The translations under genes and the position numbers were made by a program. Below the pieces are notes generated by a model. The model saw only the letters and a program-made list of their open reading frames with translations. It did not search any database and had not been told where the DNA came from. A stretch of 64,000 nucleotides of DNA from Owenia fusiformis (taxonomy: Eukaryota > Annelida > Polychaeta > Sabellida > Oweniidae): positions 10,451,598 to 10,515,597 of the forward strand of contig CAIIXF020000001.1 of NCBI GenBank assembly GCA_903813345.2, in the 5' to 3' direction. How positions within the stretch are numbered: the stretch's first letter is position 1; every line of letters begins with the position of its first letter. Shown here in pieces: positions 673 through 61,566 of this stretch.

Positions 673-3600
673 ATGGAAATCAGATGTGGAGGGCTACTTT
701 TTTCTTCCAAGTTTGACTCTGGAAACCTAGCTAGAGTTGAAAAGGTCACAAGAGATGATGACGATTCAGAAGGTAACAAATCAGCGTTTTTCTAGGGATA
801 TTACGTCATAGGCCCCTACCCTATTTTGCTTTACTTGAACAGCTAAAATATATACCTCAGAGATACCTAATCCTACATGTTTACTGTACAAATCGGCTGA
901 ATCGATATAATCGAATCGATTCAATTGATACATATTGGTCAAATATTTACAAAGATTGCATTTTTGTTTGCTCCTTTATAATTATTATTGTATCTTATTT
1001 AAGGTGCTGTAACATTCATCAGTGGTTCAGATGTGAAGTGTGACTATGAATTCAATGCTTGGACAAACCCAGATTGTGGAGGAACACCCTTCGAGAATGG
1101 AAACAGGTTTGTACATGTATCTGAAAGCCGAAAAAATATTTGAAGAGAGTATTGGGAAATTTACCAAATATTTGGTTCAGGGTGTAATTTCACAGCCCTT
1201 TGTTAGATCGAAAACCTTACTTCCTCTTATGCTGTCCTCTATTATCTATATCCATTTACAGTAAAAAGATATTTATGTACATATAAAAGTAGCCAACATC
1301 AGTTTTAGATTTTGGCCTTGAAAATTACTTCCAATATGTCCAGAATAAGATTTTTAATCTGAGAGCTGATAGCATCAAAACTGTAAAATAACTGTATAAT
1401 AGTGAGAGGGTAATGTGGCTGCCTTGTTGTTAACATTCAGTATAATTTTCATTCACTATTTCAGGTCCTGGTTCTACTTTGGAGTTAAAGGTGCATCTGG
1501 GGGTAAGGTGATAAAGATCAACATAATGAACATGAACAAACAGGGTAAACTGTACAATCAGGGACATGCCCCTCTAGTGAAGACTGTACCTGGCAAAACA
1601 AGATGGGAGAGGATACGAGATAAGCCTTCTTGGGAGGTACAGTAGAGCTCTTATTAAAACATGCATACAAAGAGGCAATTACAGTAAAACCTGTCATAAT
1701 GAAAACCTCTCCTTAGTAAACACCTGTCTCTAGTGGACACCCTTCCTACGCACATACTCCACTGACTTCTGTATAAATTTTCCTCTCTGTAGTGAATACA
1801 TACCAACACTGAGCATTTTTTCTCAGCTAAATAATTTCAATATACTCAGGTTTACTTTACATGTAATTTTTACCATATCAAAAATCAAAAGTCAATTTCA
1901 CAAGTAGTAATGTTAATCAAAGTTATCACAATCAATTGGTGATAACTGTATGGACCGATAATCTAACATAGCAATTAATACTGTATTTATTCACATAGCT
2001 TTCTTATTTTATTACATTTCAGATGGTTGATGGTCAGTTTATATTGACGTTCACTCATCGTTTTCTTGAGTTCAGAGGTGCTACTACTTACTTTGCCTTC
2101 TGTTTCCCACATTCCTACAATGAGGCACAGGAGAAGATGAATGTCTTGGATTCAAAATTTGATCACTGCAAAAATTTGACTCCAAAAAGGTACTTGATTC
2201 AGATAGAGGTGTTCTTCCTTAACTTAGTACATGTACATGTAGGTACTTTGAAATTTCTAGTACATGCATTCTTTTGATATTGTGCCTGTACATCTCTACA
2301 TCCTAGGACTGGTATTTAACTTAATGATAGATAATAACTTAAAGACCCCATGCAAAGTTTGAAGATATTGTTTTTAATAATGATTCAAATCTCTTATGAC
2401 TTCTTGTTGTCATTTATGGTTGTTTTCTAACTTAATAATAGATAATGACTTAAAGGCCCCATGCAAAGTTTGAAAACATATTTTCATTATAATAATGATT
2501 CATGTATCATTTGTTGTGAATTAAAACCACATACAAACACTGTACGAGGTGAGATGTCATATCATGGTAAAATTATTTTCAGGAATCATTAATGATTTTA
2601 ACTTCTCGTACTTGTTGCTTTATCTGTCATTCCAGCCCCCCAGACAGTATTTACTACCACAGAGAGCTACTATGTAAATCCCTAGACAATCTCCGTGTAG
2701 ATCTGCTCACTATTTCCTCCTGTCATGGTTTGACAGACGAGGAGGAACCAAGATTTGACTCAAAGTTATTTCCAGATACTGATACGCCAAGATGTAAAAT
2801 ATTCAAGAATAAAAGGGTATGTTGACAAGGACATGTTCCATGCATTATTTTCTGAGATTGACTCAATGTCTTTATAAATCAAAATGATGTCATTGATGTT
2901 TATCTTAAACTTGATCATTGAATGTGTTTGACTTCCTTTGAAAATTTAAATTGAGGGTACTTAAAAGTAAATGGCAAATACAGTGTACATGTATGTTCAA
3001 AACGAGGGTATTTTAAAGGCAGAATCTGATCTATATGGGGTGACAAAATTACAAGCAACATGTATAATTGACCTACCAATCTATCCCTTACAATATCAAA
3101 TACAATATCTCCCAAAAGATTCAAAAAGTGCAAAAATGAGTGAAAAAATGTTTAAATTCTTCCATATAATAAGAATGGTAACCATTCTTATAGAAAAATG
3201 ATACATTGTTGTAAAAATCTTTAGTTTTCCTGGAATAAAGTATGCACTTTTGTGATTTTTAGAAAATAGACATGACAAGGAATGACACGAGCCAAGAATA
3301 TTCTGAAATTGAAACAATTTTTTGTTTAGCCTGCTCGCTATATCTGATTCTCTCTTTAAAGTAGATGACAAAAGTATCTTGTAGTAACATATATTCCAGA
3401 TTCATTGAATATAAAGGAATTTTTGTTCATTGAGATCTGCTACTTCATGGAGTTTCTATTTTCTATTTTCTATGTTTTCTATGTTAAATGTATTTCAGGT
3501 ATACTTCCTTAGCTGTAGAGTTCACCCTGGAGAGACCCCAGGTCAGTTTGTCTACAATGGATTCCTCGACTTCATTCTTAGGGAACACGACCCTAGAGCC

Positions 3601-6600
3601 ATTCAACTACGGAGACAATTCCTCTTCAAGTTAGTCCCCCTGTTAAATCCAGATGGCGTCTACAGAGGCCATTATAGAACAGATTCCAGAGGGGTAAATC
3701 TAAACCGGATGTACCTCGATCCAGACTTCAGTATATATCCAACTATTTATGCCGCAAAAAGTATAATGGTTTATCATCATGTGCATAATAGAAAAGATAA
3801 ATCGCATAATCCAGTATGTGCCAATAGAAATGTAAACAATTCTGCAGCAGCTAGGAAATCACATTCCAAAAGCGAGAACCAAGAAAGACCAAGCCTGCAG
3901 GACCCAACACTAACCACACAATCAGATACGATAACTATAGCTCCAACCATGGAATATAGAGACAATGGGACCACAGGAGTGTCCTCGAGGGATAAAACAT
4001 ACACATATGTATACAATGATATTTTAAAGAACTCGGAAGAACAAAACAAAGAAATAGATAGAACCAAACAGACTGGTTCAGTAATCCAAAGTGCCAAACT
4101 CAATGAAACCCAAAGCATTATCAAAAACTTCTCCGATATGGCTATTTCCAATCAGATACCAACTGCTGCTACTGATTTAAAAGAACAAACTAATGCTATT
4201 GTAAGTGAAGATACATTTAGTGATGATGATGATGCTACTGAGCATCTTGGAAATGAGGGATCTGAAGATGACGAAGATAATGCTGCACCAGTGTCAACAG
4301 GTAATTTGGTACCACAGAGCTGTCCTCAAAAGTGCTCATACATTTTCAATTCATTTTCAGTCTTTCTTAATTATCTGCTCTAAATATACTTAAAAGGAAA
4401 ACCTCACTTTATATCACTTCTTTAAGATTTCAATACTTGTATTGTGAAATTAATTGAATATTTTTTTGTAGCTTATGGTGCTATACCATGTTGCATCTTT
4501 TGTATTAAATACATTATGTAAAATAATTAACTTAAAATATGACAAAGGCAATACCCTTTTCATTCGTTTGACTTCGCTTCTCAGAGTAGAGCTTCGTCTT
4601 CACTCTTTCAGTTTTCCTGGGCTGTCACAGGCACCAATCTTTGGGGCGGGGCTGCTAAACTGTAATATAGTCTATACTAGGCAGAGTGTAGTTCACAACT
4701 AGATTCTGTGTGCAGGGTACAAAGGCACATGTCCTAGTTCTAGATAATATGATTGCCCTCCCCTTTGTTGGACCATTTGTCTTACCTACAGTATATACAG
4801 TAGCTGCATATAAAGTTCATATTTCTCCAATTTTCTAGGGAATGTGATTGCCTCCTGTTGTTTTAAGACCCCTAGATTTACCCCCAATATATCCAATAAC
4901 TGGTTATATACATATTTCTCATATCCTCTAGGTAATGTGTTTGCTCCTCACCTCTGTGACCCTAAACTTCTTAAGATACCTCCTGATGAGAGTGGGATTG
5001 CATTCTATGTAGACCTACATGGACATGCATCTAAGAGGGGCTGCTTCATTTATGGCAACCACTTCACTGATGAGGAATCTCAGGTCAGTACTAAGAAACA
5101 AACCATGTTTTTTAGAATCAATGTATTTGAAAATATATGTTGTACCTGTAAAGTTTTGAAGTCAAGATTTGAAGAAACTCTAAATGACCACCACTTTTGT
5201 GACAATTATGGATTGATTTATCAACAATTTGTTTGTTATTGGAAGAATGTACAATTGTGGATACAATAATAATATTTCCACGTTATTTTTCCACTAGGAT
5301 GCCAGTAAAGTAAACCCGACATTGTAAAAACATAACTGATGTATTACATACCTTTATTCCCATGGCTACGTTGTTTGTTGGATCAATGATGTCACACATC
5401 TGTGTGCTAGTAGAATTTGATGGAAATGAAACATGACATCATGATATTGCCACGGTTATTAAAGAAAACGGGCAATATTGGTGGATATAGCCCATTTACT
5501 TTCTCATTGACTTCCATACAAATGCTCCCTAGGTATGTAATAATGTTTCACATTGCAGATTGAAAACATGTTATATCCAAAGTTGATCTCCACAAATACA
5601 GCACACTTTGATTTCACTGGCTGTAACTTCACAGAGAAGAACATGTATACAAAAGATCGCAAATCTGGTACATCAAAAGAAGGAAGTGGGAGGGTCGGCA
5701 TGTACAAATCTATAGGCATTTTACATAGGTTTGTAGCATTGCATATTGTTTATGTTTTACATTTTGTGTACTTCTAGGTTGAAAATATGCTCTACCCCAA
5801 GCTTGTGTCTATCAATACTGCACATTTTGATTTTACCGGGTCTCTGTTCAGTCAAAAAAATATGTACACAAAGGATAAGAGGGATGGGTTATCCAAGGAA
5901 GGGAGTGGGAGAGTTGGGATGTACAAATCAATAGGAATTTTACACAGGTACAGAACCAGTAAATGACATCGATAGTTAATTTTATTTATGGTAACTAACT
6001 ATGATATCTTATTTAGTGTTTGCCCTTTAAGAATTAAGACTATTGTATTACACTTTAACATTTAACTGTTTCTGAGTTTGTTGTTTAAATGCAGGTTTTG
6101 ATTTTTTATTGTATAAATACAGGCTTTATTTCCTTGTATGAATCCAAGCTTCAATTCATTGTAAGAAGTATAAGTTCAGACTTTGATTTATCCTAAAATT
6201 GCACTTGAAGTCATACAGCTAAACTTGTAAAGTGGAACACCTCTAGAAAAGGAACACCTCTGTTAGTGGAAAACTTTTCAGAGTCCCAAGACCAACTGAC
6301 TTATATGAGCCTCCAAAGTAGAACATTTTATAGAGGTACCAAAGGTGTTCCACAAAGACAGGTTTTACTGTACTTCATTGAAGTTACACACATTATTGTA
6401 CAATTTCTTGCAGTACTATAGATGTTCTGTTCCAGTTGCACATTATTTTACAATTTCTTACAGTACTATAGATATTCTGTTCCAGTTGCACATTATTTTA
6501 CAATTTCTTACAGTACTATAGATGTTCTGTTCCAGTTGCACATTATTTTACAATTTCTTACAGTACTATAGATATTCTGTTCCAGTTGCACATTATTTTA

Positions 6601-9600
6601 CAATTTCTTACAGTACTATAGATGTTCTGTTCCAGTTGCACATTATTGTACAATTTCTTACAGTACTATAGATGATCTGTTCCAGTTGCACGTTATTGTA
6701 CAATTTCTTACAGTACTATAGATATTCTGTTCCAGTTGCACATTATTTTACAATTTCTTACAGTACTAAAGATGTTCTGTTCCAGTTGCACATTATTTTA
6801 CAATTTCTTACAGTACTATAGATATTCTGTTCCGGTTGCACATTATTTTACAATTTCTTACAGTACTATAGATGTTCTGTTCCAGTTGCACATTATTTTA
6901 CAATTTCTTACAGTACTATAGATATTCTGTTCCAGTTGCACATTATTTTACAATTTCTTACAGTACTATAGATGTTCTGTTCCAGTTGCACATTATTGTA
7001 CAATTTCTTACAGTACTATAGATGTTCTGTTCCAGTTGCACGTTATTTTACAATTTCTTACAGTACTATAGATGTTCTGTTCCAGTTGCACATTATTGTA
7101 CAATTTCTTACAGTACTATAGATGATCTGTTCCAGTTGCACGTTATTGTACAATTTCTTACAGTACTATAGATGTTCTGTTCCAGTTGCACGTTATTTTA
7201 CAATTTCTTACAGTACTATAGATGTTCTGTTCCAGTTGCACGTTATTGTACAATTTCTTACAGTACTATAGATGTTCTGTTCCAGTTGCACATTATTTTA
7301 CAATTTCTTACAGTACTATAGATGTTCTGTTCCAGTTGCACGTTATTGTACAATTTCTTACAGTACTATAGATGTTCTGTTCCAGTTGCACATTATTGTA
7401 CAATTTCTTACAGTACTATAGATGTTCTGTTCCAGTTGCACATTATTTTACAATTTCTTACAGTACTATAGATGTTCTGTTCCAGTTGCACGTTATTGTA
7501 CAATTTCTTACAGTACTATAGATGTTCTGTTCCAGTTGCACATTATTGTACAATTTCTTACAGTACTATAGATGTTCTGTATCAGTTGCACATTATTGTA
7601 CAATTTCTTACAGTACTATAGATGTTCTGTTCCAGTTGCACATTATTTTACAATTTCTTACAGTACTATAGATGTTCTGTTCCAGTTGCACATTATTGTA
7701 CAATTTCTTACAGTACTATAGATGTTCTGTTCCAGTTGCACATTATTGTACAATTTCTTACAGTACTATAGATGTTCTGTTCCAGTTGCACATTATTGTA
7801 CAATTTCTTACAGTACTATAAATGTTCTGTTCCAGTTGCACATTATTGTACAATTTCTTACAGTGCTATAGATGTTCTGTTCCAGTTGCACATTATTGCA
7901 CAATTTCTTACAGTACTATAGATGTTCTGTTCCAGTTGCACATAATTGTACAATTTTTACAATGTTTAATTCAAGTTATATATAAGTGTACAATTTTCAA
8001 TATAGCATTCATAAACATTTTATTCCAGTTAGAGAGTAATTTCAGATTTTAACACAGGAATTTCTCTTTTAGTTACACACTAGAGTGCAATTACAACACA
8101 GGACGTATGGTGAATTCTGTGCCACCTGCTTATGGGGATGATGGGAGAGCAACACCTCCTCCAGTGGCTGGATTCCCTCCTAAATATACAATAGAACATT
8201 ATGAAGAGGTAAATTTACAATAGAGCATTGTGAAGATGCAAATATACAATAGAACATTATGAAGAGGTAAATTAACAATAGAGCATTTTGAAGATGCAAA
8301 TATACAATGAAGGGATAAGTTTACAAGAGAGCATTGTGAAGATCCAAATATACAATAGAACAATATGAAGAAATAATTTACAATAGAGCATTGTGAAGAT
8401 GCAACAGATTATTATAAAGAGGCAAATATACTGAAGATTCCCTCCTAAATGTATTATAGAAAATGTATCATAATCTGAATGCTTTTTATTACTAAATAGT
8501 CATATACAGTATATAGACATTCATTCACTGCTAGGTTGGAAGGGCTTGTGCAGTTGCTGTATTAGACATGACGGAGACTAACCCCTGGTCTCGCCTTACT
8601 CTCTGTGAGCACAGCTGCCTGCATGGGGTGAGGGAGTGGGTGAGGCGATATATACGTAGCCTCCGAGGTCAACCGAGAAGTCTCCCTAGAAACATGGCAA
8701 AGGCAGCAAAAGCAGCTTCAAGGTATTTTCAAGTTACAAAATTTGTTAACAATGTACAACACATATTTGAAACCTATATTGACACTATAAATCAAATGAT
8801 CAAACGATCAGTGATCTCTTGTATTAATTCACAGCTTTGAAATGAATTAAAATGTTGCAAATATACATATTGACAGAGAAAGTGTTTTGTTACAGCATCT
8901 GTGAATGGTGAGTATATTGTGTATTAGTGTATATGTTAACTTGTATGTTCTGGTCTTGTCCTTTAATAATCACACACAGCTCGCTCACAAAATACAGGGT
9001 GTCCAAAATAGGACTGAAGAAAAGTTGATTAACTGGGCCAATCTTGCATATTCTGTCTTGAAATGACATCCGTTCAACAGATTCAACTGTGCATAGATGG
9101 GACAGGTGCCCACTTGGAACAGGTTTTGTAACCAAGTTAATCAAAATTTTCTTTGGTCCTGTTTTTTTGGATACCCTGTACGTGTACTTGTAATTTGTTC
9201 ACTCATAGTAATATTTACTATCTCACCAATATAATGTGTCTCACCAAGATTGTGTGCAACCTGCAGGCCTATGATAATGGCAAAAGGCAGGTCGTTTTAT
9301 TGCAGTCTCAAACACTGTTGATCAATAACCTGTTGAGACCCAGTGAATCATTGAAGTAACTGGATTCTTGTAATTTTGTTTCACCAGAAAGTCACTCCTC
9401 CCAGTTTTCAAATAGTGTTATCTACTGTACATTAAGAATTCTTCCATTTTTGTACCTTAAAATATTGTACTATTTCATGCATGCACATTTCTGGGTAAAC
9501 TGCTTGACTTGTCAATTTGTACCTATGTTTTATTGAGGGAAACAATCTTGAAAGATGAATGGATCACTTTGATCAAGATCATAGACACCCTGCCATGCAG

Positions 9601-12600
9601 GCGGAACAATTTTGAAAGATTTCTCAAGCTTTGCAAGTACCCACACTAGCTGTATTTTTTTTTTAAAAGTGATTCACACCAAACATTGTAGAAACTTCAG
9701 AGAGTTTCTGCTAACAGTACAGGAATTATTTTGACATTCGGACATAATGAAAACTTTAAGGAGTGACAATTGTAATATCTAATAAGTAATGATTTCTTAT
9801 GTATGCAATGTGTTCATGTTATAATATTGTAGTGAATACTCAAGACTTCTGTTCGCATTTAACATTTCTCTTGTAATAACTCTGGTAGTAATGGAACAAT
9901 TTTTTCAATTTTTAGATGTAAATGCATATGTATATATAAGTATGGTGCAATACAAAACATTATCTTTTGACAACAAATCTATTATACATGGCCACTTTGA
10001 GTGAGAAATGATGGCTTGCAGTCTTGTCTGACACTTGATAATTTTTATCCTATAGGATTTGCTTCACCTTGGTGTTAGTAGCCATTGCCTAGTAATGCAA
10101 AAAGTTTCAGGTATTCTAAGGGGCCCATCATGAATCAAACTTCTTGGCTTGCCTGACATCAACACAATCAGGGACGTGTTGTACTCTTTTTAATTCTTTA
10201 TTACATGTATCGTGTATATTAAATCATGATTTATGACGTTGAATGAAAAACTTGTCTAATTGTAGTGCTGTTGCTGCCGCAGCTGCTTCCCATAATGCAA
10301 CACGTAATTCTAAAGTAACCAATGATGCTTCTCGGTACTCCAAGTATGGTGATTCTAAATCAATTGATTCAACCAATCAGAGAACAGCGAGTCGCAAGTC
10401 AAATCTTCCACAAAGTAAAAGGGAGTTAGGCCCTGTTAAAGAATGTAAGTACACGTAAATTTTGTTCACGTGACTGAGGAATACTGTTTGTTCAAAGAAT
10501 CTTATTCCTAATTATGAGGTATTGATGTACAGTATAAGGAGTAGGGACCAATTGAATATTCCTATGTTGTCTTTAACAAGTTAGATTGAAAGTTTTCTTT
10601 TTAAAAATCAATGTATATTGACAGAACATGTTGTATTTTTCCCCTCAACTGCAACTATTACATTTTATGAATTAAATATCTGTGTATTGATTGATTCAGC
10701 TCGGCCATGGGAAAGGAACAGACGCAAAATGGGTGGAACAGTGTCATCAAGTAGCACATCCTCCTCAACTAGCAACAAGTCACCGGTAGCTGCAAAATCC
10801 CCAATCACCTTGACAATGACTACAGCGACATCTATAGATATGAAAACATTTTTTCCTGACCGTCCCTCACCTAAGCCATTTCTAGTTAACAAGCAGTCTG
10901 CACATATAGGTGACACAAACAGTAATGATGTTAACAAAGTATCTGAGAGCCATACTCAGTATAGCCCAAGGTCATTGAACTCTCTAGTAAGAGAGTTGTC
11001 TACAGATGGCAGTACAGTACTGTCGTTGGAAGAAGAAAAAATTCAACAGTTGAGAAATGTAGGTTTGAACTACGATTTTGATTTACATGTATATTGTATA
11101 GTATGTTTACATGAGGGTTATAAGTACTATGTTAAGGCAGGCTTTGATTTATGAGTTCATATATGTTCGTTTTTTGTATCTTTAACGGGTTTGGGATAGA
11201 TACCAAAAGAAGTGGTGATATTATATTCTTCTCCAACTTCCCAGTGACAGATGATGGCATTGAGCATCTGTAGCATTTGTTTGGAATAAATTACCATGAT
11301 AGTAAACCTCATAATCACATAAATGTTTACTTTGAATATGTTATGCTTGGGCATCCCCAGGGGGGGGGGTGCTATGTGCTATGGAAATATTGTTTAATTT
11401 AATATTGTTTTAACCCAATAATTTATGGATGTTATTTTATATTTTTCAGCTCCCCATATTGCACAAGCCACCAGCCCATCTCAATGGTGCCTCCATACTA
11501 GATACTCCTAAGTAAGTTCTATGATGTAGCTTTTGATTTATCCAGTCATGAAATATAATGCATATCTAGTATACATAAAGAGTATCCTTTATAGATGAGG
11601 TTCATGGTATTGGGGTAAATATAAAATATCTGCCTGATGCCTGGTGGTACTGCTTTTTTTATTCCCATATTTTTCCCCCATAATTTAATATATCTGCCCA
11701 CTTACCCAGGATGTTCAGTATAAGCCTGGCATCTTTTTCAGTTTTAGATTTCTTAGAAGTCAGGAATTTTTACTTTACTTACTGAGGTACCATTTTGAAA
11801 ATGTTGATTTGCTGATCAAATAGTTCTAGAATGTGTATAAAGACTAAAATACTAGGATACTAAGATACTTCCATAAGAAAAAATAATCCTAAGAAATGCA
11901 TTTTGGCAGCTGTTTGTGGGTCAATTAAATTACATGTATGCACAATTTCACTTCAGGTATACCCCAAACTCTCCAGTGTTTCGGTAATTATCCCACTGAA
12001 CAAAGTTCAAGTAGGGATAAAGAGAAACTATATACAGGGTGGTCAAAAAGTGAACCCTTGCAACAAGCTATATCTCAGTTATTTCCAGCACTAATGGGCT
12101 AATCTTTTCACATGTTTTAGAAAAAGGCCTAAAGTTTTAGTTGGTACCATAAAGGTCACTCAGTCTTAAATCTTGTAGAAGTTATAGGACATCAACACAC
12201 ATGCCTGATTAATGGATGATGTGCTGCTACCTGGTTATTACTATCATCAAAATCTTAATTCAATTTCAATTCAATTCAATTATTTATTTCATAATTCTTA
12301 TATAATATACACTATAAAAACAAGCCGCTAGACACCCTAGTGGGTATATGTTGCGGTTTAACAGAAATCATTAAAATGACAACTAGACTACATATAAAAG
12401 AAAACACTTATATTATGTTACATGTAGGTATATAAAAATGGTATTAACAATTAATCTAAGGATGTACAATGTAAAAATGTTACAAAAATCGGGTACCAGT
12501 ATAAAATCAACAGTATAGTATGATATTGGTATTATACATTATCGATAGATGAGTAGTTTTTTATATGAAGATTTGAAAATATTTAGAGTGGAGCATTTTT

Positions 12601-31151: not shown

Positions 31152-61566
<30,415 letters not shown>

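Follow-up and report, generated by a model that had tools for sequence, protein, structure and literature searches.

The window, meaning the whole stretch of 64,000 nucleotides analyzed here, carries an AGBL5 (CCP5) gene on the plus strand, starting at position 673. The gene was modeled as exons 1 to 12 (673-11058), with further 3' exons lying outside the model, and its 12 exon positions are in frame with AG/GT boundaries. The eighth position is represented by two adjacent exons, 8a and 8b, and repeats lie on both sides of this pair. The features to which we refer are as follows.

673-772, 1004-1106, 1465-1636, 2023-2189, 2636-2816, 3499-4300 and 4932-5083, plus strand: AGBL5/CCP5 exons 1 to 7, placed by their frames, AG/GT boundaries, open joined frame, alignment to CCP5 and Pfam
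5335-5542, plus strand: one copy of a MITE-like repeat that is dispersed in the genome and whose short inverted ends read ATTACATACCT...AGGTATGTAAT; the left edge is the start of the query, so the element covers at least this interval
5559-5728, plus strand: exon 8a, 170 nt, phase 0 to 2, encoding IENMLY...GCNFTEK...GILH
5729-5777, plus strand: spacer between 8a and 8b, 49 nt, with donor GTTTGT and acceptor CTTCTAG
5778-5947, plus strand: exon 8b, 170 nt, phase 0 to 2, encoding VENMLY...GSLFSQK...GILH
6389-7961, plus strand: minisatellite with 31.5 copies of a 50-nt unit, in the intron between 8b and exon 9
8073-8208, plus strand: exon 9, joinable to 8a or 8b and carrying SYTLECNYN
8535-8722, 10266-10444 and 10700-11058, plus strand: exons 10 to 12, placed by their frames, splice sites and open joined frame

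The predicted product contains the CCP N-terminal domain (PF18027) and the M14 domain (PF00246) in a Pfam search with the 8b version, and the best PDB matches of the joined core in its 8a version are CCP5 chains (E 1.1e-161). The catalytic core aligns throughout with fish CCP5 (PDB 8v3q and 8v3m; the fish is presumably zebrafish). Either isoform would contain the motifs HPGE (exon 6), DLHGH (exon 7) and YTLE (exon 9), since these lie outside the swapped exon. We take DLHGH to be the motif of the third zinc ligand and the Glu of YTLE to be the catalytic Glu. Chain 8v3q has an Ala where the window has this Glu, which is consistent with a catalytic mutant. The gene is apparently single-copy in the assembly, given that searches of its 498 Mb, in which N stretches and search filters allow misses, reported neither another CCP5 gene nor a third copy of 8a/8b. 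Matches to M14 carboxypeptidase exons number at least 93, and many of them lie on one contig (C3, G000:C3), which suggests clusters of digestive-type carboxypeptidases there. Of the 299 listed matches to M14 exons, to the dispersed element described below and to kinesin, one lies on C80 and the rest on C1-C12. Erythrocruorin linker domains, an annelid feature, match at three places on C6, and a search for mitochondrial COX1 gave no match in the assembly.

On re-reading the DNA, we found the coordinates, 170-nt lengths, phases, open frames and splice sites that the earlier note gave for 8a and 8b to be exact. Each exon is bounded by AG and GT, is entered in phase 0, is open in that phase and is left in phase 2. 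Exon 7 ends on a codon boundary and exon 9 completes a serine codon, split as AG and T, after 8a or 8b, and either exon alone yields an open product of 903 residues over the modeled exons 1 to 12. Double inclusion shifts the frame, as the note had stated, with the first stop at residue 667. When both exons are skipped, the first stop comes at residue 581, and when the spacer is retained, the frame runs to a TAG directly before 8b. The note had also described the exons as diverged versions of the same 56-residue segment between the third zinc ligand and the catalytic Glu, and alignment to 8v3q agrees with this description: the 56 residues of 8a align without a gap to CCP5 456-511 of that chain, with identities of 41/56 for 8a and 40/56 for 8b over the segment. 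The two exons encode proteins that are identical at 45 of 56 residues (80%), and their nucleotides differ at 49 of 170 positions, with 32 of these differences at third positions (over the 168 nt of whole codons) and a longest identical run of 11 nt. They match each other at E 1e-25 within one contig, and stops, frameshifts and loss of splice sites are absent from both.

The comparison of dN/dS between the copies that the note had proposed was run with a pairwise codon model. Synonymous sites are saturated, at a dS of about 4 or higher: the estimate of dS ran to its boundary, the likelihood dropped by 1.94 lnL at a dS of about 4.1, and a dS of 1.2 was worse by 11. Purifying selection is strong, with an omega of 1 rejected (2dlnL 75.6) and omega staying below 0.09 across the range profiled. 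At 12 of the 15 fourfold sites where 8a and 8b encode the same residue, the nucleotides differ, and segment positions 39-56, which include SKEGSGRV, are identical in protein between the exons yet differ at 9 of 54 nucleotides. A fit in which one copy has been neutral since the duplication was 25 lnL worse, and confining the neutral phase of one copy to the last 5, 10 or 20% of the time still cost 2.9, 4.7 and 7.8 lnL, respectively. Given the low omega and the rejection of a neutral copy, we infer that both exons have been translated and constrained for most of a long history, with which a very recent loss in one of them would still be compatible. Compared with fish CCP5, 8a has 4 private residue changes and 8b has 5, while 9 changes are common to both and all three sequences differ at 2 sites. 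Because of the changes common to both copies, the duplication probably took place after the split from vertebrates, as judged against this one outgroup. With synonymous sites this saturated, the pair would be expected to extend to related genera at the least.

The splice sites of both exons were scored with a matrix built from the gene's 11 other sites, which is small and makes the scores indicative only. The acceptors scored 9.5 (8a) and 11.6 (8b), against a leave-one-out range of -4.1 to 9.5 for the gene's others, and the donors scored 5.3 (8a) and 7.6 (8b), against 3.2 to 9.2. The donor hexamer of 8a is that of exon 2, and the donor hexamer of 8b is that of exon 3. Two yUnAy matches in the spacer place branch-point-like As at distances of 24 and 31 nt from the donor of 8a; the spacer is too short for any A to lie 50 nt from that donor, and any branch point for 8b has to fall within 49 nt. 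Introns as short as 49 nt are spliced in some animals. The spacer is shorter than all 40 of the other introns estimated, comprising 12 in AGBL5 (231-2125 nt) and 28 in kinesin genes of the same genome (about 118-4569 nt), the latter derived from 70 match rows that were picked by eye out of 144. We also inspected by eye two kinesin matches in which an intron of about 48 nt could have gone unnoticed, and neither contains one. In vertebrates, the steric limit for the distance from donor to branch point is put at about 50 nt in passages of two papers (PMC7969005; PMC5740500). The earlier note had considered the spacer probably too short to be spliced as an intron; the length of 49 nt stands as exact, and the claim that this is too short draws its support from the vertebrate threshold and the 40 introns estimated here. 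Because the spacer is below the vertebrate limit and shorter than the other introns, a steric block combined with the frame would be the most likely mechanism of exclusion. We also considered competing RNA secondary structure as the mechanism and set it aside, since no convincing structure was found among 10 region pairs tested against 100 shuffles. For the strongest pairing, between intron 7 and the end of intron 8, 1 of 100 shuffles did as well (5, 7 and 7 for those that followed), and we treat it as chance.

Exclusion of this kind is known from vertebrate OGDH, in which, according to passages of PMC7969005, the choice between exons 4a and 4b is enforced by branch points that are 25 to 41 nt away from the 4a 5' splice site, less than the proposed limit of about 50 nt. 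As in AGBL5, these are anciently duplicated exons of an enzyme gene with a donor-to-branch-point distance of less than 50 nt. In OGDH, however, the branch points are far from the 3' splice site, whereas in AGBL5 the whole intron is 49 nt. The two OGDH isoforms have also been demonstrated and have a known difference in calcium sensing, whereas the AGBL5 isoforms are predicted from DNA sequence. Among human clusters of mutually exclusive exons, passages of PMC5740500 count steric interference in 57 (9%) and lengths not divisible by three in 377 (60%), and both constraints apply to the AGBL5 pair. Neither AGBL nor carboxypeptidase is mentioned in the main text of that paper. A mouse Agbl5 variant that encodes a putative 412-residue isoform, as described in passages of PMC10953240, differs from the 8a/8b pair in having no exon swap in the core. 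Searches for the pair in collections of viral and prokaryote contigs gave pattern matches (5, 28 and 36) but no relative. The earlier note knew of no exon swap in CCP5, and we likewise found no description of one in CCP5/AGBL5 in our searches of open-licence full texts. A mutually exclusive exon pair is a known kind of system, of which the CCP5 instance is one without a description that we could find.

Taken together, 8a and 8b are adjacent homologues of equal length and phase, with splice sites and with frames compatible with the outer exons; the frame shift and the 49-nt spacer would both act against double inclusion, the steric part by analogy with vertebrates, and protein-level purifying selection acts on both copies. 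Given these properties and the saturated dS, we consider it likely that the two exons arose by an ancient tandem duplication and form a mutually exclusive pair within the apparently single-copy AGBL5 (CCP5) gene. In such a system, exon 7 would be joined to 8a or 8b and then to exon 9, and a splice from 8a to 8b would be blocked because every possible 8b branch point is so close, at most 49 nt, to the donor of 8a. With both exons included, or both skipped, the frame would shift and lead to an early stop and probably to nonsense-mediated decay. The CCP5 enzymes translated from the two mRNAs would share the zinc site, the catalytic Glu and the SKEGSGRV...ILH block, and would differ in the segments at fish residues 465-467, 477-481 and 489-493. 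From the DNA we infer that both exons would be in use in vivo, that misspliced forms would decay and that the isoforms may differ in function.

The repeats next to the pair may bear on the use of the two exons. The right edge of the MITE-like element lies 16 nt upstream of 8a, and the element covers the usual branch-point zone of this exon. It is one of at least 62 matches genome-wide (40 of 831 candidates were scored), and a second copy of the same dispersed element lies at about 9-246, upstream of the AGBL5 gene. The copy beside 8a departs from the majority sequence of 10 other copies at 11 of 198 sites (5.6%), a figure that is biased low given that 9 of the 10 are the element's best genome matches. 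For 8a, yUnAy matches within 60 nt occur only at -9, -49 and -53, and an AG in the element (5531-5532) sits between the distant matches and the true acceptor. The element could therefore weaken 8a or could have recently silenced it. On the far side of the pair, the minisatellite unit contains TACTATA and pyrimidine-rich AG sites. By the small acceptor matrix, 28 of the 93 AG sites at 6389-7990 equal or exceed the 8a acceptor in score and 4 of 93 equal or exceed that of 8b. The minisatellite may be a series of decoy acceptors lying between 8b and exon 9. Either repeat could affect the choice between 8a and 8b. A 29/58-nt tandem repeat at 8181-8404 starts inside the 3' end of exon 9 and crosses its donor into the intron.

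We considered that only one of the exons may be in use now and that its partner was silenced too recently to have decayed, the most likely candidate being 8a, with the transposon-like insertion at its acceptor. This would fit the position and divergence of the element, the sparse branch-point matches of 8a with an AG intervening before its acceptor, and the codon model, in which neutrality for the last 5% of the time is only weakly disfavored. Against this, the 8a acceptor scores above 98.3% of the 3485 AG sites on the plus strand of the window, and the AG of the element scores -1.5 compared to its 9.5. Both copies are also intact, and 8a has few changes of its own besides the 2 ambiguous sites. 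We therefore regard present use of a single exon as unlikely. It is less likely still that the main role of the pair is to turn the gene off, through inclusion of both exons or of neither and subsequent decay (regulated unproductive splicing), rather than to make two enzymes. Both nonexclusive forms do shift the frame, but the protein sequence of a poison exon is free to change, and the amino acids of both copies are constrained; on the strength of this conservation we rejected a role as a poison exon only. The short spacer should in addition prevent double inclusion. We give next to no credence to an artefact of assembly or of recent duplication, or to a relic copy that is not transcribed, given that the former is contradicted by the saturated synonymous divergence, with only short identical runs and intact sites on both exons in one contig, and a relic since the duplication by the 25-lnL deficit of that fit.

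If 8a and 8b are indeed mutually exclusive, their 11 residue differences, at segment positions 1, 10, 12, 22, 23, 25, 26, 34, 35, 36 and 38, mark where the two enzymes would diverge. The fish CCP5 chains have one version of the segment, and 8b departs from it at the CxF motif, where GCNF in 8a is replaced by GSLF and the Cys by Ser. Two CCP paralogues in the genome read NCSF...SKEATARV (L014, by tblastn alignment) and SCKF...SKEGTGRV (L017, lined up by eye). The CxF Cys is thus kept in all four of the other CCP segments compared (fish CCP5, 8a, L014 and L017), and 8b alone has Ser. Exon duplication was not seen in the two paralogues, each of which gave one segment match within 20 kb of its sequence. 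CCP5 is described in the abstract of PMC12185745 as removing branch-point glutamates. We tentatively propose, as a possibility that we hold at well below even chances, that 8a encodes the standard CCP5 and 8b, with its CxF Cys lost and its 477-481 and 489-493 stretches changed, a second eraser with an altered choice of substrate (a different tail, a different chain length or a non-tubulin protein), picked by tissue or life stage, such that splicing would set which tubulin-code marks are erased. If one gene does make two versions of the core by an exon swap, splicing could alter specificity without any change in the number of genes. The AGBL5 pair would also provide a case, in an enzyme, in which exclusion is imposed by an extremely short intervening intron. 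Its residue differences within the catalytic domain, a natural set already tested by evolution, offer a way to probe CCP5 specificity.

Other tandem repeats were seen in the window and in the genome. Arrays of a 183-nt repeat lie at 55669-57704 and 59179-60353 of the window, and their consensus units look, on inspection by eye, like reverse complements of each other. At a kinesin locus elsewhere (L013 246-3089; G000:C2, about 23266345-23269188; gene on the minus strand), 17.9 tandem copies of a 159-nt unit occur with 97% matches. This unit holds a kinesin motor-domain exon, and a stop codon and a separate acceptor-like sequence occur in the units that were read; the array may be either a satellite of recent origin that carries an exon or a large set of exons in tandem.
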